Below, in pieces: positions 4,395-36,192 of a DNA stretch of 36,192 nucleotides. Every line of letters begins with the position of its first letter. Position 1 is the stretch's first letter. The notes beneath the pieces were generated by a model. The model searched no databases, was not told the origin of the DNA, and saw only the letters and a list, made by a program, of their open reading frames with translations. Origin of the DNA: Acidimicrobiales bacterium (lineage in GTDB: Bacteria; Actinomycetota; Acidimicrobiia; Acidimicrobiales; SZUA-35); the NCBI GenBank assembly GCA_024644005.1, contig JAHELU010000017.1, positions 1 through 36,192 on the forward strand. The letters are read 5' to 3'. The position numbers and the translations under genes were made by a program.

Positions 4395-6683
4395 ATGGCA
4401 GAACGAGGTCCAGAGACGCCCATCGAGCTCATCGAGGGGGTGTACCGAACCCTCGACGAGCGGGTGGGTGCCTTCCGCGAACGGCTCGGCCGACCGCTCA
4501 CCCTGTCGGAGAAGATCCTGGCGAACCACCTCGACGATCCGGACACCGAGGTCGAGCGGGGGGTCAGCTACGTCGACTTCCGCCCCGATCGGGTGGCCAT
4601 GCAGGACGCAACGGCCCAGATGGCGTGGCTCCAGTTCCAGACCGCAGGGTTGAGCGAGGTCGCGGTGCCCACCACCACCCACTGCGACCACCTGATCCAG
4701 GCCAGGGAGGACGGCAAGAAGGACCTGCTGGCCGCCCTGGACAACAACGAGGAGGTCTACGAGTTCCTCGAGTCGGTGAGTGCCCGCTACGGCGCCGGCT
4801 TCTGGAAGCCGGGGAGCGGCATCATCCACCAGGTCGTGCTCGAGAACTACGCGTTCCCCGGGGGGATGATGATCGGGACCGACAGCCACACGCCGAACGG
4901 CGGTGGGCTCGGCATGATCGCCATCGGTGTCGGCGGCGCCGATGCGGTCGACGTGATGACCGGCTTCCCGTGGAACGTCCGGTGGCCGAAGCTGATCGGC
5001 ATCCACCTGACCGGTGCGCTGTCCGGCTGGTCGGCCCCGAAGGACGTGATCCTCAAGGTCGCCGAGATCCTGACCGTCAAGGGCGGGACGGGGGCGATCG
5101 TGGAGTACTTCGGTCCGGGAGCGAACAGCCTCAGCGCCACGGGCAAGGCCACGATCTGCAACATGGGAGCCGAGATCGGCGCCACCACCTCGGTGTTCGG
5201 TTACGACGACGCCATGGCACGCTACCTCAAGTCGACCGGCCGCGAGGCGACCGCGGACGCGGCGAACCAGGTGGCCCACCACCTCCGGTCGGACGACGAG
5301 GTCCTCGAAGATCCCGGGCGGTTCTTCGACCAGGTCATCGAGATCGACCTGTCGACCCTCCGGCCCCACATCAACGGGCCCCACACCCCCGACCTGGCCC
5401 GGGAGGTGTCGGCCCTCGGCGCAGAGGCCGAGGCCAACGGCTGGCCACTGGAGATCAGCGCCGCCCTCATCGGCAGCTGCACCAACTCGTCCTACGAGGA
5501 CATCACCCGGGCAGCTTCGATCGCCCGCCAGGCCGCAGCGGAGGGGCTGCGGGCCAGGACGAAGCTGATGATCACGCCCGGTTCCGAACAGGTGCGGGCC
5601 ACCATCGAGCGGGACGGGCTCCTCGCGGACTTCGAGGCCCTCGGGGCCACGGTGCTGGCCAACGCCTGCGGCCCCTGCATCGGACAGTGGGACCGCTCGG
5701 AAGAGGAGGGCCACACCCCGGGAGAGACCAACGTCATCGTCACCTCCTACAACCGGAACTTCCCGAAGCGCAACGACGGCGACGGGGCGACCCTGGCATT
5801 CGTGACCTCACCGGAGACCGTGATGGCCCTGGCGCTGTCCGGCCGGGTCGACTTCGATCCGTTGAGCGACTCCCTCACCACCGACGACGGCCGGGAGGTC
5901 CGGCTCGATGTGCCGGTCGGCATCGAGTTGCCGCCCCAGGGGTTCGACGAGGGCGAGAGCGGCTTCGTCGCTCCCCCGGAGGACGGATCGGATGTCGAGG
6001 TGATCGTCTCCCCCACCTCCGATCGGCTGCAGCTCCTCGAGCCGTTTCCCGCCTGGGACGGCAAGGACTTCGAGAACCTGCCGATCCTGGTCAAGGCCCA
6101 GGGCAAGTTCACCACCGACCACATCTCGATGGCCGGACCGTGGTTGCGGTACCGGGGTCACCTCGAGAACATCTCCGGCAACCTCTACCTCGGCGCGGTC
6201 AGCGCCTTCAACGAGGGCATCGTCGGCATGGGCAAGAACCAGCTGACCGGGGAGCGCCAGAGCTTCCCCGACATCGCCAAGGCCTACCACGAGGCGGGCG
6301 TGCCGTGGGCTGCCATCGGCGACGAGAACATGGGCGAGGGCTCGTCGCGCGAGCATGCGGCCATGGAGCCCCGGTTCCGGGGCTGCGTGCTCATCCTGGC
6401 CCGGTCGTTCGCCAGGATCCACGAGACCAACCTCAAGAAGCAGGGCATCGTGCCGCTGACCTTCGCCGATCCTGCGGACTACGACAGGATCGGCGAGGAC
6501 GACCGGCTGGGGACCGAGGGCCTCGCCGACCTCGCCCCCGGTCAGCCGGTCACGGTCACGGTGACCACCCCGGACGGCGAGCAGTGGAGCTTCGAGGGCA
6601 ACCACACCTTCAGCGACGACCAGATCGGCTGGTTCAAGGCCGGGTCCGCCCTCGCCGTCATTCGCCGCCAAGTCGAGCGCTGA
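4395..6683 (+). CDS. acn: Aconitate hydratase, mitochondrial type
   Basis: A 762-aa aconitase that interconverts citrate and isocitrate in the TCA cycle. The [4Fe-4S] ligands are Cys362 ([10 protein letters not shown]), Cys425 and Cys428 ([13 protein letters not shown]). The C-terminal swivel domain carries [25 protein letters not shown], and the substrate-binding [17 protein letters not shown]. The length and these motifs match the mitochondrial/Cytophaga-type family rather than the roughly 900-aa bacterial AcnA or AcnB. ATG 4395 has GGAAGG about eight bases upstream. The HAD-PlsC gene converges on it with only a 6-bp gap. It is divergent from a GntR regulator, an arrangement that makes local control of aconitase likely but unproven. 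Confidence 0.97.
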
Positions 6684-6689
6684 CGGCGC

Positions 6690-8177
6690 TCAACCAGTGG
6701 CCGGCCCCGGGGGGACGGTGCTGGCCAGCTGATCCGGGGTCGGCTCCCGGCGCTCCCGGCGCTCCCGGGCCTCCGCTGGCAACAGGTCGACGATCCTGGC
6801 CATGAGCTCGACCGTGGCCAGGCCGATGTCGTCGGTGCGGGGCCGATAGGGCTGGCCGACGGTCACGGTGACCGTCGGCGGGTCGGCGACGTTCAACACG
6901 TACGGCACCCGGGAGCTCCGCGGCCAGGCGCGCTCGGTGCCCCACAGCCCGACGGGGGCGATCGGTGCGCCGGTCTCGATGGCCATGCGGACCGCACCGT
7001 GGCGGCCTTCGAGGACGGGCTCGAAGAACTGCTCGCCTCGGGGGATCGTGCCCTGGGGGAACACGGCGAGCAGCTCACCGGCCCGAATGGCCCGTGCGGC
7101 CTCGATCATCGGGGCATCGCTCCCACTGCGCCGGTCGACTCGGATCGCCCCGAGCGACCTCGTGAGCGAGCCGACGACGGGGGCGTCGGTGACCTCCTTC
7201 TTGGCGAGGAAGCGCACCGGCCGACCGGCCCTGGCCGAAGCGTGGGCGACGACGAGCGGATCGAGGTAGCTGCGGTGATTGGCTGCGAGCACCACTCCGC
7301 CGCTGGTCGGCAGGTTGGACAGCCCGTCGATCGTGATGTCGACCCAGGGGAGCAGCTCGGGGCGGAGCAGCTTCGCTAGCACGGCCTGCGGTTCGATACC
7401 GCTCGGTTTCGGCACCCCCGGCGGGGCGTTGAACCAGACTCGCGGCCACCGTTTCAGCGTGGCGTAGGCGAGGAGACGAGGATCGGGATTGACCGCCACC
7501 GGGTGGCCGACGCTCGACAGCATCGGCAGATCGAAGATGCTGTCGGAATAGGCGTAGCTGTCTGCCAGGTCGATGCGGTTGGCGCCGGCCCAGACCGCAA
7601 CCGATCGGGCCTTGCCCCGCGACCAGACGAACTCACCGTCGATCGTGCCGTCATAGACCTTGTCGTCAACTCGGTCGTCAACTCGGTCGTCAACTCGGTC
7701 GTCAACTCGGTCGTCAACTCGATCGTCAACTCGGCCGTCACCGTCACCGTCACCGGCGATCCGGTAGCGGGTGGCGAGCACGTCGTCGAACCCCAGGCGC
7801 GCCGCGAAGGGAGCGACGAGATCGAACGGCGTCGTGGTGGCGAGCACGAGCTTGCGCCCTGCGTTGCGGTGGTCGGCCATCGTCTCCCGGGCGAACGGCT
7901 CGACCAGCTCCGAGAGGCCGATCGCCACGTCGGCGGCCACACGGCGGACCGTCGTCACCGGCCAGCCCCTGGCCGCCCGCGGCGCCGCCTGCCGGGTGAG
8001 CAGCATCGCAGGCAGGGTCTCGCCGAACGCATCGAAGATCCCGATGACCAGGCGCTCACCGGGGACCGGCCGGCGGGCCAGCAGGCCGTGTCGGCGCAAC
8101 GCCTCCGAGATCACCGGTCCGCTGGCGCCGGGGAGCAATGTGCGATCGAGATCGAAGAACGCTGCGGCCCGTGGCAT
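6690..8177 (-). CDS. HAD-IB phosphatase / PlsC acyltransferase fusion
   Basis: A 495-aa two-domain protein of the type annotated in mycobacteria as Rv2483c-like. Residues 1-240 are a HAD-IB phosphatase: motif I FFDLDRT (Asp9, Asp11), a Thr-rich motif II near 113-116, and the acidic motif DSYAYSDSIFDLPML (206-220). Residues 275-470 are a PlsC/LPLAT acyltransferase with NHRSYLD (His301-x4-Asp306) and FPQGT (373-377). The latter motif is usually FPEGT, so Gln375 is unusual. Expected role is acylation of lysophosphatidate or a similar lysophospholipid at the membrane; the phosphatase substrate is unknown. Residues 149-172 are six RVDD units coded by a 12-bp tandem repeat in the HAD domain. A TANNNT hexamer (TACCGT) lies 8 bases before the ATG and no ribosome site is visible. 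Confidence 0.9.
   Translation of the reverse strand: MPRAAAFFDLDRTLLPGASGPVISEALRRHGLLARRPVPGERLVIGIFDAFGETLPAMLLTRQAAPRAARGWPVTTVRRVAADVAIGLSELVEPFARETMADHRNAGRKLVLATTTPFDLVAPFAARLGFDDVLATRYRIAGDGDGDGRVDDRVDDRVDDRVDDRVDDRVDDKVYDGTIDGEFVWSRGKARSVAVWAGANRIDLADSYAYSDSIFDLPMLSSVGHPVAVNPDPRLLAYATLKRWPRVWFNAPPGVPKPSGIEPQAVLAKLLRPELLPWVDITIDGLSNLPTSGGVVLAANHRSYLDPLVVAHASARAGRPVRFLAKKEVTDAPVVGSLTRSLGAIRVDRRSGSDAPMIEAARAIRAGELLAVFPQGTIPRGEQFFEPVLEGRHGAVRMAIETGAPIAPVGLWGTERAWPRSSRVPYVLNVADPPTVTVTVGQPYRPRTDDIGLATVELMARIVDLLPAEARERRERREPTPDQLASTVPPGPATG
7662..7752 (+). repeat. 12-bp tandem repeat inside HAD-PlsC gene
   Basis: The unit gtcgtcaactcg occurs five times perfectly and once with a single mismatch at 7662-7733. 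It is followed by three copies of ccgtca (7735-7752). On the coding strand the 12-mer gives RVDD repeats and the 6-mer gives GD repeats, so copy-number change would keep the frame. It falls between conserved HAD motifs, where a surface insert would sit. Confidence 0.95.
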
Positions 8178-31753: not shown

Positions 31754-32902
31754 TCAATAGCGGAAGAGGGCGGCCAGCTCTTCGCCGCCCGGGACCTCGG
31801 CCCTGCTCACCACGTAGACGACGCCACCATGGGTGAGCGTATCGATGGCCGCTCTGTCGAGGAGATCATGGTCACCCGGCTGACGCGTGTCGTGCACGTC
31901 GACCCGCTGCCGGTTGGCATCGTGGCTTCCCCAACTGTGGGCGTCCACCGGCACGAACAACGTGTCGACCCGGCCCGAGAAGGCGGCCGGAAGGATCTCC
32001 TCCAGTGACGAGCTGGCTGGGGTCGTGTTGGCCAGGAAGGTCTCGGTGGCGGCGCTCCGGCCCTCGGCCAGAAGGGGCTCGACCAGCGGCCAGGCCCTGC
32101 GATGGAGCTCATCGGCGCCCAGCTTGTCCGGGTTGCCCTCGATGGCGGCACCGGCGATCCGGGGGTACGTGCTGATGCCTCGGTACGCGGCCAGCAGGGA
32201 GTTGACCCCGGCCAGCACCAGTGGCGTGGCCGGGTCGTCGAAGAGATGGCGGATGCCTGCGTCGACGATGCGGAAGAAGCGGGCGAGATCGGACTTCGTC
32301 GAGTCCTTCGTTCCCCCGTGGCCGTGAAAGGTCGCAGCCACCCGTCCCCGCCCGACCCGGTCGGCGCCGTGGCTCTGGATCTGTCGCTCGCGGTCGTCGT
32401 ACCGCAGGACGTCGGCCAGACTGTGGGGAACGTCTCCCAAGCCGATCTCCGAGAGGTGGAGCGGATCGCCGCGGAGCAGCCGAACGCGATTCTGGCTGAG
32501 CGCCAGGACGTGGAAGGTCTTTCCGGTGGCCAGTGCAGCGATGAGAGGCTTGAGGTGGAAGCGATCGGCTATGACGACGAGCTCCTCCATCGGCTCCGAC
32601 AGCCGGTAGGCGACCGTCGAGTCCGGCCCGACGTACAACGCGAGGCCACGGGCCTGGTGGGCCCAGAACTCCTGATCGTCGAGCAGGGCCGTTGCGGGTG
32701 CGAGCAGCGCAGCTGCCTCGGGAGACCGGAGACCGAGCGAGACCAGGTCGGCGGTGGCCTGGGTCAGCAGGTTCCTGAACCTGATCGGATCCTGCGCCTG
32801 CTCGGGCCCGACGGGGTGGGTCGGCAGGAGCATCGAAACGCAATGATCGGCAGTGATGTCAGCCAACTCGCGGAGGTCGTCGCTCGTGACGAAATCGATC
32901 AT
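31754..32902 (-). CDS. baeRF-like (bacterial archaeo-eukaryotic release factor) protein
   Basis: A 382-aa cytosolic protein. Characteristic segments: CVSMLLPTHPVGPEQAQDPI, FRNLLTQATADL, LLDDQEFWAHQARGLALYVG, MEELVVIADRFHLKPLIAAL, FHVLALSQNRVRLLRGD, then TFHGHGGTKDSTKSDLARFF and HRRAWPLVEPLL. These match the widespread bacterial family related to eukaryotic/archaeal class I release factors (baeRF, family 3-like), thought to act at the ribosome or in stress, without proven function. I use ATG 32902 because GAGGTGG precedes it; the open frame upstream to 33022 is not family-like. Followed by a stem-loop at 31696. The HTH gene ends 150 bp upstream on the same strand, so co-transcription is possible. 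Confidence 0.8.
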   Translation of the reverse strand: MIDFVTSDDLRELADITADHCVSMLLPTHPVGPEQAQDPIRFRNLLTQATADLVSLGLRSPEAAALLAPATALLDDQEFWAHQARGLALYVGPDSTVAYRLSEPMEELVVIADRFHLKPLIAALATGKTFHVLALSQNRVRLLRGDPLHLSEIGLGDVPHSLADVLRYDDRERQIQSHGADRVGRGRVAATFHGHGGTKDSTKSDLARFFRIVDAGIRHLFDDPATPLVLAGVNSLLAAYRGISTYPRIAGAAIEGNPDKLGADELHRRAWPLVEPLLAEGRSAATETFLANTTPASSSLEEILPAAFSGRVDTLFVPVDAHSWGSHDANRQRVDVHDTRQPGDHDLLDRAAIDTLTHGGVVYVVSRAEVPGGEELAALFRY

Positions 32903-33052: not shown

Positions 33053-33424
33053 TCAGTGCTCGAGGGCGGCCTTCTGTCGCAGGAGCGCCGAGATGCGCTG
33101 GCGGGTGACGCCGAACAGCTCGGCGATGGCCTCGATGGTGAGACCCTCTGCCCTGAGGGCGAGAGCCACGGCCGCTCTGAGCTCGGCGCCGACGGTCTCG
33201 AGCGTCGCCATGTTGGTGGAGAGCAGTTCGACCACGCGCGGCCGTTCCTCGCGGCGCACGATGTCGACCAGCGCCTCGCCCCGCTCGAGGCTCTCGCGGA
33301 GATCCCGGACGCGTCGCTGGATCTCGAGGCTCCGCTCGACGTTCTCGGCCGCCCCGGCCTCGATGCCCTCCACCGCTGCCAGCAGTCGGGTCAGTGTTTG
33401 TTCCTTGGCTGCCACGAGATTCAA
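33053..33424 (-). CDS. Small HTH transcriptional regulator, coiled-coil N-terminus
   Basis: A 123-aa protein. Residues 1-85 are a helical, charged, coiled-coil-like segment (ENVERSLEIQRRVRDLRESL). Residues 88-118 are a helix-turn-helix (ALRAEGLTIEAIAELFGVTR then QRISALLRQK) similar to homeodomain-like or sigma-4-like DNA-binding helices. I do not know the family. TTG 33424 and GTG 33415 are the possible starts, neither with a clear ribosome site. It lies 60 bp after kup on the same strand and a near-perfect copy of the GCAATAGCTAT palindrome (33449-33462) lies 25 bp upstream. It is the obvious candidate to bind that motif and to control the kup region, which is inference from position. Confidence 0.75.
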   Translation of the reverse strand: MNLVAAKEQTLTRLLAAVEGIEAGAAENVERSLEIQRRVRDLRESLERGEALVDIVRREERPRVVELLSTNMATLETVGAELRAAVALALRAEGLTIEAIAELFGVTRQRISALLRQKAALEH

Positions 33425-33448
33425 GTCAAACAGCTGAGGGCCGCCTCC

Positions 33449-33462
33449 GCAATAGCTATAGC
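33449..33462. promoter_or_regulatory. Palindromic operator candidate, copy 1 (imperfect)
   Basis: GCAATAGCTATAGC differs at one base from the perfect palindrome GCAATAGCTATTGC at 35886, and shares the following C-A-G. It sits in the short gap between kup and the small HTH gene, just upstream of the latter. I found ATAGCTAT nowhere else in the window. Confidence 0.6.
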
Positions 33463-33484
33463 CAGCCGACGTCGAGAATTCTTC

Positions 33485-35359
33485 TCACAGATCGACGTGG
33501 GTGCCGATGTCGATGCTCCGTTCGGGCGGCAACCCGAAGTGGACGCTCGGGTCACCGGCGTTGCGACTCATGAAGATGAAGAGCCGTTCTCGCCACGGAG
33601 CCATGCCCGGTCGGCTCGTCGCTCGGAGTCGCTCCCGCCCGAGGAAGTACGTCGTGTGCTCCGGGTCGAAGCTGATCTCCTCGAACAGCAGCTCCTGGAG
33701 GTCCTTGGCCAGATCGGTGCGGTCGGTGAACCCGTAGTGCAGCTCCAGCTCGAAGAAGCCGAGGCCGATCGGTCTCAGTCGGTCGCGCTCGGCGGGATGG
33801 ACATGGGGTCGGTCGGCCACGATGACCGAGACGAACACGATCGTCTCGTGGAGGCTGTCGTTGTGTCGCAGGTTCGCCAGCAACGCCGGGGGCACGACGC
33901 CCGGCTGGCGATGGAGGTAGACGCCGGTTCCGGGGTGTCGATGGGGCGGATGGGCGGACAGACCGCTGACGAAGCTGTCGACGGTCAGCGCCCGCCGCTC
34001 GATGCGTTGGCCGAGCAGCCACCGCCCCTTCCACCATGTGGTGAAGATGGTGAAGCCAGCAATGCCTATCACCAGGGGGAACCAGCCGCCGGACGGGATC
34101 TTGAACACGTTGGCGGCGGCGAACGCCAGGTCGACGACGAGCAGCGGGGCGAGGATGGCCGCGGTCCGGGTCGGCGACCAGTGCCATCGCTGGATCACGA
34201 CGGCGGCGATCAGGACGGTCGTGATGACCATCGTCAGCGTCACCGCCACGCCGTATGCCGCAGCGAGCCCCGCCGACGACCGGAAGGCGACCACCAGGCC
34301 GATGCACGAAACGAGGAGGAACCAGTTGACGGCCGGGACATAGATCTGACCCCGATGGGCCGCCGATGTCTGGGCGGTGCGCATCCTCGGCAGGTACCCC
34401 AGGTTGACGGCCTGGACGGTGAGGGAGAACGCACCGGTTATCAACGCCTGGGATGCGATGACCGTTGCTGCCGTTGCCAGGATGGTGAGCGGCCACTGGA
34501 TGATGTCGGGGGCGAGGAGGAAGAACGGATTGGCGATCGCGGCCGGCTGCTCGAGCAGCAGCGCCCCCTGCCCGAAGTAGTTGAGCACGAGGGCGGGGAG
34601 AACCAGGGCGAACCAGCCGGCCTGTATCGGTCGACGACCGAAGTGGCCCATGTCGGCGTAGAGCGCCTCGCCCCCGGTGACGACCAGGAAGACCGAGCCG
34701 AGGACCAGGAAGCCCCGTCCGCCGTTGTCGGCGAAGAACGCAACGGCCCGACTCGGGTCGAGCGCCCGCAGCACCGACGGCTGGCTGGCGATCTGGGCGA
34801 CACCCAGCGCAGCGAGGGTGGCGAACCACACCAGCATGACGGGCCCGAAGAACCGGCCGACGATCTCGGTTCCATGGCGCTGGATCGAGAACAGTCCGAT
34901 CAGGATGACCACCACGATCGGCACGACCCACGCATCCACACTCGGCGCCGCCACTTCGACGCCCTCGACCGCCGAGAGCACCGAGATGGCCGGCGTGATC
35001 ATCCCATCGCCGTACAGGAGAGCGGTACCGAACAGGCCGAGGATGATGAGGTTCCTGCGTGCTCGACCCTCGCCGGTGACGAGCGCGGCGAGAGCCAGGA
35101 TCCCGCCCTCGCCGTGGTTGTCCGCCCGCATCACGATGGCCACGTACTTGATGCTGATCACCACGATGAGCGACCAGAAGATCAACGACAGCACCCCGAG
35201 CACGTTCGCCTCGTCGACGATCAGCTCGTGCTCGCCGCCGAGCGACTCCCGAAACGCATAGAGCGGGCTGGTTCCGATGTCGCCGAACACCACACCGAGC
35301 GCACCGAGCGCCAGCCCTGCCGTGGTGCCTCCGGTGGGGCGGTTCGGGGCGCCGGTCAC
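33485..35359 (-). CDS. kup: Potassium uptake transporter Kup (Trk-type KUP family)
   Basis: A 624-aa potassium/proton symporter of the KUP/HAK/KT family. The N-terminal signature LGVVFGDIGTSPLYAFRESL starts near residue 21. About twelve membrane helices follow (for instance VLGVLSLIFWSLIVVISIKY; NLIILGLFGTALLYGDGMITP; ALYADMGHFGRRPIQ), and a cytosolic C-terminal domain ends in FFELELHYGFTDRTDLAKDL and RLFIFMSRNAGDPSVHFGLP. Length matches the family. GTG 35359 overlaps the TGA of the DUF1003 gene (GTGA), so the two are translationally coupled; the open frame continues upstream but only as the shadow of that gene. Downstream lies the HTH gene. The coupling suggests the DUF1003 protein acts with potassium uptake, an inference. 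Confidence 0.96.
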   Translation of the reverse strand: MTGAPNRPTGGTTAGLALGALGVVFGDIGTSPLYAFRESLGGEHELIVDEANVLGVLSLIFWSLIVVISIKYVAIVMRADNHGEGGILALAALVTGEGRARRNLIILGLFGTALLYGDGMITPAISVLSAVEGVEVAAPSVDAWVVPIVVVILIGLFSIQRHGTEIVGRFFGPVMLVWFATLAALGVAQIASQPSVLRALDPSRAVAFFADNGGRGFLVLGSVFLVVTGGEALYADMGHFGRRPIQAGWFALVLPALVLNYFGQGALLLEQPAAIANPFFLLAPDIIQWPLTILATAATVIASQALITGAFSLTVQAVNLGYLPRMRTAQTSAAHRGQIYVPAVNWFLLVSCIGLVVAFRSSAGLAAAYGVAVTLTMVITTVLIAAVVIQRWHWSPTRTAAILAPLLVVDLAFAAANVFKIPSGGWFPLVIGIAGFTIFTTWWKGRWLLGQRIERRALTVDSFVSGLSAHPPHRHPGTGVYLHRQPGVVPPALLANLRHNDSLHETIVFVSVIVADRPHVHPAERDRLRPIGLGFFELELHYGFTDRTDLAKDLQELLFEEISFDPEHTTYFLGRERLRATSRPGMAPWRERLFIFMSRNAGDPSVHFGLPPERSIDIGTHVDL

Positions 35360-35781
35360 GAGTTGCCGTCGACATCCGTCGTCACGACGGAGCGGTGGAT
35401 CTCTTCGGTCAGTGCCTCGATGGTCTTGATCATCTCGGCTGCATCGAGGTCGGTCTGATAGTCGTGGGTGGCCAGCTCTGCTGCCACCTGGTCGGCGCGA
35501 CGGGCAGCTATGAGCAGGATTGCGCCCTGGAGGGCCGCCACGCACGAGAGGATCAGGTTCGGGAGTATGAACGGATATGGATCGAAGCCGACGTTGCGGT
35601 TTCCGGCCGTCCACCCGGCGAGGAACAGCAGCGCTGCGAAGACGAAGCCCCACGACCCCATCCCGTTCCGCAGCCGGTCGGCCGCCCGCTCCCCGAACGT
35701 CAGCTCGTCGACGGATCGGACCCCGGGGTGGTGACGCCACATGTTGCGACCCGGTCCCACCCGCCACCTGGCGAGAGTCAT
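35356..35781 (-). CDS. DUF1003 family membrane protein
   Basis: A 141-aa inner membrane protein. Two transmembrane helices (about 42-60, SWGFVFAALLFLAGWTAG, and 71-93, FILPNLILSCVAALQGAILL) surround the signature FDPYPFILPNLILS of the DUF1003 family; the N-terminal ERAADRLRNGMGSW fits too. The C-terminal 50 residues are a charged cytosolic helix. AAGGAG seven bases before ATG 35781 makes it the best start; ATG 35787 is too close to that site. It is the first gene of a coupled pair with kup. Function of the family is unknown; the operon suggests a link to ion transport or membrane state. Confidence 0.9.
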   Translation of the reverse strand: MTLARWRVGPGRNMWRHHPGVRSVDELTFGERAADRLRNGMGSWGFVFAALLFLAGWTAGNRNVGFDPYPFILPNLILSCVAALQGAILLIAARRADQVAAELATHDYQTDLDAAEMIKTIEALTEEIHRSVVTTDVDGNS

Positions 35782-35885
35782 CTCCATTCTCCTTCGTTCA
35801 TCGCGCCGGTCGGTTCCCGTGTCGCCGCTCGACGGCAGCACCGACTGGCGATCCTAGCCGCCCTGCTCCGACAATGGCTGTTTCT

Positions 35886-35899
35886 GCAATAGCTATTGC
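35886..35899. promoter_or_regulatory. Palindromic operator candidate, copy 2 (perfect)
   Basis: GCAATAGCTATTGC is a perfect 14-bp palindrome in the spacer between the divergent DUF1003 gene and the membrane gene at 36010. Its right half overlaps the -35 hexamer of the promoter at 35896-35924, a repressor-like placement. A degenerate second site (caatggctgtt, 35872-35882; two mismatches to caatagctatt) lies 15 bp away. Confidence 0.65.
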
Positions 35900-35924
35900 C
35901 AGAACGCCCGCCACCGTCTAGCAT
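35896..35924 (+). promoter_or_regulatory. Promoter of right-edge membrane gene
   Basis: TTGCCA (35896-35901, five of six to TTGACA), a 17-bp spacer, then TAGCAT (35919-35924). It is the best-formed sigma-70-type promoter I see in the window. Start of transcription would be near 35931, about 80 nt before the ATG at 36010. Confidence 0.6.
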
Positions 35925-36009
35925 GAGCCGCAACGCCGTCGACAGGACAGACGCGTGCTCCCAGCGGGCGCCTGGACATCGCTACTCGGTACTCGTAGAA
36001 GGAACACCG

Positions 36010-36192
36010 ATGTCGGTCATCGATCCTCCCCAATCCGTCACCCCGCCACCGTCGCCGTCACCCGAGCGCGACCGCAGCCGGTACGTGCTCTGGCTCGTCC
36101 TCGGCCTGATCGGGATCTTCCTGCTCGGCGCCCTGCTCGCTGTTGCGCTGGTGCTCATCAGCACCTCGGAGGGCGATATCCAGAGCGAGGTC
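36010..36192 (+). CDS. Membrane protein, N-terminal fragment
   Basis: The first 61 residues of a gene that leaves the window. A Pro/Ser-rich cytosolic start (MSVIDPPQSVTPPPSPSPER) is followed by one strongly hydrophobic helix (about 27-50: YVLWLVLGLIGIFLLGALLA) and an acidic exit. AGAAGGAA lies about six bases before ATG 36010. It could be a single-pass anchored protein; the family cannot be named from this part. Its promoter overlaps the perfect palindrome at 35886, so it probably shares regulation with the DUF1003-kup unit. Confidence 0.7.
   Translation, partial: MSVIDPPQSVTPPPSPSPERDRSRYVLWLVLGLIGIFLLGALLAVALVLISTSEGDIQSEV

Follow-up and report, generated by a model that had tools for sequence, protein, structure and literature searches.

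A small helix-turn-helix protein family of Actinomycetota with a predicted GCAA-N6-TTGC operator

Contig JAHELU010000017.1 of an Acidimicrobiales bacterium (assembly GCA_024644005.1), analysed here over its whole length of 36,192 nucleotides (the window), carries a gene for a small helix-turn-helix (HTH) protein directly downstream of the potassium transporter gene kup, together with two closely similar palindromic sites, and the question it raises is whether this protein acts through these sites and on which genes. An earlier note on this DNA had described a perfect 14-bp palindrome overlapping the −35 element of the rightmost gene, in the spacer that this gene shares with the divergent DUF1003–kup pair, and a copy one base off just before the HTH gene, and both are found as described. 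The perfect palindrome GCAATAGCTATTGC, a predicted operator without strand, is an exact match at 35886–35899, before the rightmost gene and across the start of its −35 element TTGCCA (35896–35901). The second site, also without strand, lies at 33449–33462 (GCAATAGCTATAGC, one mismatch from the palindrome; GCTATAGCTATTGC when read towards the gene) and, like similarly placed sites before homologous genes, is a putative operator of the HTH gene. The core ATAGCTAT indeed occurs at only these two places in the window (0.03 expected), both of them between accepted genes, and two matches to the palindrome at up to two mismatches, as found in the window, arose in none of 100 shuffled sequences.

We consider it quite likely that the protein represents an HTH family with the operator GCAA-N6-TTGC, refined in this lineage to G/TCAATAGCTATTGC/A, and that it would repress itself along with a small number of genes whose products are membrane-bound or exported. 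The evidence that carries this reading comes from homologous loci. A scan of named genomes with a single HTH peptide pattern, L[FL]G[VL]TRQR[IV]S, yielded 78 loci (L098–L175), including metagenome-assembled genomes of Acidimicrobiia, many Blastococcus, Modestobacter and Geodermatophilus, a few Pseudonocardia, Kineococcus and Nitriliruptorales, and others. In upstream segments of 410 bp taken at the start of the HTH match in these loci, GCAA-N6-TTGC was matched 60 times in 31,506 bp compared to 8 times in 541,872 bp elsewhere, a 129-fold enrichment, with an upstream site in 45 of the 78 loci. Control spacers of 2–5 and 7–12 bp gave 0–3 upstream matches each, as did 14 permuted half-sites. With the relaxed pattern KCAA-N6-TTGM there were 77 matches upstream and 11 outside, and the loci with an upstream site rose to 56 of 78, being 35 of the 41 Geodermatophilaceae loci (grouped by record titles, one of them, L157, being titled 'UNVERIFIED_ORG: Bacillus') and 21 of the 37 others. 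Five of the 11 outside matches lie 382–468 bp upstream (L126, L139, L148) and three before neighbouring genes (L102, L105). A later test with phylum-level loci included four (L206, L207, L209 and L211) that are neither from the source genome nor among, or near-identical to, the earlier loci, and each has two sites upstream and none elsewhere. The proposed pairing of protein and palindrome is thus borne out by sites that are common upstream of the HTH homologues, even between distantly related lineages, and rare elsewhere in their loci, and from this pattern we infer that autoregulation of the HTH gene through the palindromic site, as the earlier note had suggested, is very likely.

The protein itself appears to belong to an undescribed family of one-component DNA-binding proteins of about 120 residues in Actinomycetota. 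Its gene (33053–33415, minus strand), recognised from its open reading frame (ORF), its match to HTH_23, its homologues and an AlphaFold2 model, encodes 120 residues from a GTG at 33415 or 123 from a TTG at 33424. The GTG is probably the start, because the TTG overlaps the predicted −10 element (TTGACT, 33429–33424); the putative operator lies 33 bp before the former and 24 bp before the latter. The protein consists of a long N-terminal helix, two further helices and a C-terminal HTH (RAEGLTIEAIAELFGVTRQRISALLRQ), and its AlphaFold2 model, built on a 44-sequence alignment, is all-helical (pLDDT 96.2; helices 3–47, 52–58, 64–92, 97–104 and 108–122, the last two forming the HTH). Since the site is palindromic and the helix long, the protein would probably bind in dimeric form, its helical N-terminal part joining the two subunits. 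Pfam gave generic HTH models only, with HTH_23 above its cut-off (E 2.4e-6; 27.6 bits versus 24.6) and Sigma70_r4 below (E 1.3e-4), and no NCBIfam model passed its cut-off. The sigma-70 model TIGR02937 scored 17.8 bits over residues 36–116, under its cut-off of 42.9, and was matched by 8 of 8 members of the set A1 at E ≤ 0.1. The HTH therefore resembles that of sigma-70 region 4 and of ECF sigma factors, from which the protein differs in that these scores stay under the cut-offs and the Pfam search found no region 2. MarR_2, at 20.2 bits, fell short of the 27 required for the MarR family, and no MerR model was present among the 19 Pfam matches at E 1. Foldseek found no match to the model in the PDB at E ≤ 0.001 (best 0.18), while a PDB sequence search returned two at that threshold, 8vd6 (a repeat protein) and 2a6c (an HTH-motif protein), both confined to the HTH part. 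A phage origin was considered and rejected: a viral scan with one peptide pattern, LFGVTRQR, gave six loci that are alike over just 25–28 HTH residues.

Homologues at E ≤ 1e-3 were present in 12 of 99 genomes (the source and its relatives), and 6 of the 39 genomes of the same family have one. Further out, they occur in at least 19 of 397 order-level genomes (E ≤ 1e-20) and at least 8 of 396 phylum-level genomes (E ≤ 1e-15), both being lower bounds since no more than 11 candidates were scored per genome. The source assembly also holds an apparent remnant of a second HTH copy (G000:C50:42774-42896; L018, L038, L212), 68% identical over 41 residues, with two in-frame TGA codons within a longer profile match. 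Adjoining the HTH gene in the window is a gene of the bacterial archaeo-eukaryotic release factor-like (baeRF) type (31754–32902; Pfam family 7, E 1.2e-39).

Both sites of the window fall within predicted promoters. That of the HTH gene, with a presumed transcription start, reads TTGCGG–17 bp–TTGACT (33424–33452, minus strand), and TTNACT likewise follows 17 bp on (18 in L099) in 8 of the 13 HTH promoters compared; with the GTG 8 bp after the −10 hexamer, the mRNA is probably leaderless. For the rightmost gene, a mechanical scan of 33380–36192 gave as its sole sigma-70-like promoter TTGCCA–17 bp–TAGCAT (35896–35924, plus strand; −10 element at 35919–35924), whose −35 element overlaps the right half of the operator. 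Throughout the Acidimicrobiia compared, the right half of the palindrome forms the start of the −35 element, and T....T stands exactly 17 bp past the latter in 17 of 20 target promoters and 9 of 13 HTH promoters, spacers of any other length from 8 to 29 never reaching more than four, in a count made on hand-picked promoters that excludes the second G021 copy and the DUF1003 side. The three target promoters without this element are those of L099, G002 L079 and the C88 gene of the source assembly. L125 and seven Geodermatophilaceae loci, 8 of 57 in all, have a different layout, in which the last site ends 2 bp before TANNNT. Where a −10 element is recognisable, the position of the site would thus shift between lineages and yet cover core promoter DNA.

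Because core promoter DNA is covered in the layouts of both lineages, we favour repression: the bound protein would occlude the promoter, and would most likely keep its own gene and genes for exported proteins repressed until some signal releases it. The same regulator and sites could also serve activation, the protein recruiting RNA polymerase from about −38.5, with which the fixed register to the −35 element in Acidimicrobiia and the distant likeness of the HTH to sigma-70 region 4 are consistent. Lambda CII, which activates, likewise binds around the −35 element at TTGC half-sites separated by six bases, though as direct repeats, unlike the inverted half-sites here. We nevertheless hold activation to be unlikely, since the target promoters would need little help (a full TTGACA in 15 of 20 and a −10 element with at least four matches in 11 of 20), the last site in the eight loci with the second layout lies between the −35 and −10 regions, and small autoregulated HTH proteins are mostly repressors.

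The sites are often arranged in tandem. Two sites 15 bp apart were found in eight cases, and in L099, L100, L101, L103, L104, L106 and L108, where they have this spacing, the spacer has the sequence TGTCAATAGCTATTGC-A/T-GCTATAGCTATTGACA or one close to it, each outer half-site of these seven close homologues containing an outward TTGACA. Upstream of the HTH gene in 36 Geodermatophilaceae loci, distances between TTGC and TTGC were mostly 16 (37 times), 32 (15), 44 (13) and 60 (10), whereas a control stretch (5000–8000) of the same loci held 10 TTGC pairs in all and none at 16 or 32. Neighbouring dimers on such tandem sites may cooperate. More speculatively, and with rather more doubt than confidence, one may picture HTH regulators, present in several lineages of actinobacteria, that assemble on arrays of GCAA-N6-TTGC sites with a step of about 1.5 helical turns (15 bp or 16 bp, depending on the lineage). 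Each dimer would then sit on the face of the DNA opposite to that of its neighbour, so that the promoter is wrapped. Such regulators would govern a fast-changing repertoire of cell-surface proteins, and their link to an RsbW-like HATPase_c_2 protein might provide a partner-switching input. Other arrangements were also observed: two sites just 14 bp apart upstream of the homologue in L093; a direct repeat with GCAAGCCATTGC, a variant with a 4-bp spacer, upstream of that in L026; and, at L083:4930-4990 (G007:C180), three palindromes at up to two mismatches in 15-bp steps with a partial fourth, before an apparent thrS (by eye) in a genome, G007, that has the HTH protein.

As to the genes controlled, the regulon in the window would consist of the HTH gene and the rightmost gene. 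The latter, of which only the start is present (36010–36192, plus strand; RBS-like AGAAGGAA at 35997–36004) because the window is the whole contig, encodes a protein with a Pro-rich N-terminus and one transmembrane (TM) helix by eye. It has no Pfam match and no tblastn match among the loci compared; its layout is like that of operator-preceded proteins of relatives, with a likeness in sequence that is not provable. That this membrane gene is a likely target, as the earlier note had it, accords with an operator inside its predicted promoter in the same register as in other target promoters. By eye, 18 of the 20 target genes of the promoter set look membrane-bound or exported; gene models in relatives came from a simple codon-score ORF finder, and visual inspection likewise served to call TM helices, signal peptides and lipoboxes. 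A gene for a small PLDc_N-type membrane protein lies divergent to the HTH gene in L100, L101, L104, L106 and L108 (by Pfam in L100 and L104, by similarity in L101, L106 and L108, with L101 cut at a contig end), and a gene with a lipobox-like start follows in L100, L104, L106 and L108. AlphaFold2 gave this lipoprotein β strands at residues 52–124 with fair confidence and the rest with low confidence (mean pLDDT 57.7). In G036 and G033 the same small PLDc_N-type protein is again encoded behind a site. In G038, an 81% complete genome in which no HTH homologue was found, the site is followed by a TM-anchored protein related to the lipoprotein. Further operator-preceded genes encode a TM-anchored protein common to G021 and G036 (51% identity), placed before the HTH gene; a profile search with it reached 5 of 397 genomes and was strong in G021 alone. 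Secreted-looking proteins are shared by L099 and L103 (79%) and, of another kind, by L114 and L141 (68%). In G002 one site precedes a 157-residue gene product without Pfam match and another a TM-anchored protein.

Such a small autoregulated HTH protein, with a small hydrophobic PLDc_N-type gene divergent from it in five loci and weak likeness to HicB- and HigA-type HTH models, might also suggest a toxin–antitoxin or defence module in which an antitoxin-like autorepressor is paired with a membrane toxin. We regard this as very improbable: the neighbour is not constant (PLDc_N, lipoprotein, TM-anchored, secreted or HATPase) and frequently faces away from the HTH gene instead of sharing an operon with it, the HigA model reached 15.8 bits where 47.7 are required, giving no membership of the type II antitoxins, and a search for defence systems with PADLOC returned no match at E 0.01 for the six proteins tested. 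In Geodermatophilaceae-type loci (among L118–L173), the divergent gene belongs to one RsbW-like cluster in 35 loci, HATPase_c_2 being assigned by Pfam to the sole cluster member tested (L118), and L102 also has a HATPase_c_2 gene after a TM gene; a functional link between the HTH protein and the HATPase_c_2 protein is a guess. A large helicase-like gene (by eye) follows the HTH gene in 37 of these loci.

In the source assembly (4,455,969 bases, 314 contigs, 83% complete), the palindrome occurs at three places with up to one mismatch and four with up to two, and two of the four, the perfect one among them, flank the window HTH gene. The two others (C88 and C175) look genuine. The C88 site precedes a gene for a TM-anchored protein whose homologue in L102 (37% over 104 residues, E 8e-11) also stands behind a site, and the C175 site (G000:C175:23501 = L029:5502) lies before a gene for a 1062-residue BTAD/AAA regulator, with ATGCGG-17-TAGGAT. 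A partial tandem copy is found 15 bp from the C175 site. Across 18 genomes reached via the loci (some repeating G handles, and G038 included), 15 hold 1–3 places with up to one mismatch and three hold none, which is why we call the regulon small. Among the 99 genomes, the exact palindrome is present only in the source genome and G036, in the latter 0.95 kb before the HTH homologue, and the HTH homologues of G002, G007, G021 (C39), G033 and G036 have sites at up to three mismatches nearby.

Several observations weigh against the reading of a family-wide operator through which the protein represses. The site, being centred near −38.5, would fit activation as well, and the stricter TANNNT shows no peak at 17 bp on the HTH side (1 of 57 loci, with 9 of 57 on the side away from it), so that the peak seen there depends on the looser T....T and on 13 promoters picked by hand. 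As many as 22 of the 78 named loci, L107 and L116 among them, lack an upstream site even by the relaxed pattern, although L105, L109 and L112 among these have variant sites or sites before a neighbouring gene, and since the loci are related, the counts are not independent events. The 14 order-level loci L084–L097 have an upstream site only in L086, L093 and, weakly, L097, with two sites elsewhere in the locus in L084 and none upstream; some order-level and relative loci repeat named ones, L086 being, by length and match, on the same contig as L124. Seven loci of relatives (L022, L025, L026, L027, L028, L030 and L031) have it in three (L025, L027, L030), and none of the seven has the 14-mer by the HTH at up to three mismatches. 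In the later test, no site was found in L203, L204 and L210 (99–100% identical to members of the earlier set) or L205 (the same place as L085). The site is therefore common, not universal, in the family. Moreover, the 14-mer with up to one mismatch occurs in 22 of the 99 genomes, 16 of which have no HTH homologue at E ≤ 1e-3, and in G033 one of the near-copies falls within a coding ORF (L081). In the genome-wide search that the earlier note had proposed, copies are few and half of them flank the HTH gene; a reversed control pattern, which differs from the palindrome in its dinucleotides, was found once at up to one mismatch and was commoner at up to two (9 versus 4). That the sites arose by chance or as a dispersed repeat, as the near-copies in the 16 relatives without the HTH might hint, is nonetheless barely credible; the enrichment next to HTH homologues largely refutes it, and flanks and central bases vary while half-sites and the 6-bp spacer are kept.

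The earlier note had placed the system around potassium uptake. The kup gene (33485–35359, minus strand; K_trans, E 3.6e-185) and the gene for a DUF1003 membrane protein (35356–35787, minus strand; E 2.8e-20) are clear from Pfam, and the perfect site in the spacer between DUF1003 and the TM gene, 98 bp before the former, together with an HTH gene directly downstream of kup, would fit control of DUF1003–kup by the HTH protein within a potassium regulon, a possibility not exclusive of repression of the HTH and membrane-protein genes. The neighbourhood, however, recurs in no other locus compared: tblastn over the fetched loci, five repeats of own-genome stretches set aside, found kup and DUF1003 in the window only and nowhere else beside an HTH gene. 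Homologues of kup (E ≤ 1e-80) are present in 8 of 41 genomes including the source, the other seven giving eight loci, which were taken with 1.5 kb on either side as far as the contig extends. None of the six loci that reach upstream, from six of these seven genomes, has an operator or DUF1003 there (L218 and L221 end inside kup), and none of the six that reach 1.5 kb downstream has an HTH homologue (in L215 and L220 the DNA stops within some 30 bp). Inside kup genes there were one KCAA-N6-TTGM match (L214) and two copies with three mismatches (L219). Towards DUF1003, the hexamer at the 17-bp position from the palindrome (GCAGGG) does not resemble a −10 element, and we found no paper joining DUF1003 and potassium. 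The operator may affect DUF1003–kup in the source organism, but a potassium regulon is very improbable and the link to potassium looks accidental; sites in relatives cluster at the HTH homologues, and not at those of kup, so that neither kup nor DUF1003 is supported as part of the system.

Known regulators offer partial parallels. BldC of Streptomyces is described as a MerR-like protein of 68 residues without a coiled coil that binds direct repeats (PMC5859096). The window protein resembles it as a small actinobacterial DNA-binding protein with no effector domain and multiple adjacent sites, and differs in its 45-residue N-terminal helix, its homeodomain- or sigma-r4-like HTH and its inverted-repeat, albeit tandem, sites. 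NrdR is described as a repressor, often of its own gene, that has an ATP-cone, controls ribonucleotide reductases and depends on the helical phase of its boxes (PMC12051234, PMC9110341); apparent control of its own gene and paired sites are shared by the window protein, which is no NrdR by its Pfam matches at E 1, none of them an ATP-cone. No literature on the HTH family was present among the matches listed, in a search mostly outside subscription journals, so that earlier work is possible, and we found no paper containing GCAATAGCTATTGC. The kind, a small autoregulatory HTH protein with tandem operators, is already known, whereas the family and its DNA code appear to be new.

A family without a Pfam or NCBIfam model of its own thereby acquires a predicted recognition sequence (GCAA-N6-TTGC), together with a proposed mode of action and a few candidate targets, and since homologues occur in cultured Blastococcus, Modestobacter and Geodermatophilus, the system can be tested outside the source organism. 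In Acidimicrobiia, the putative targets suggest that what is controlled are exported and membrane proteins without assigned function.

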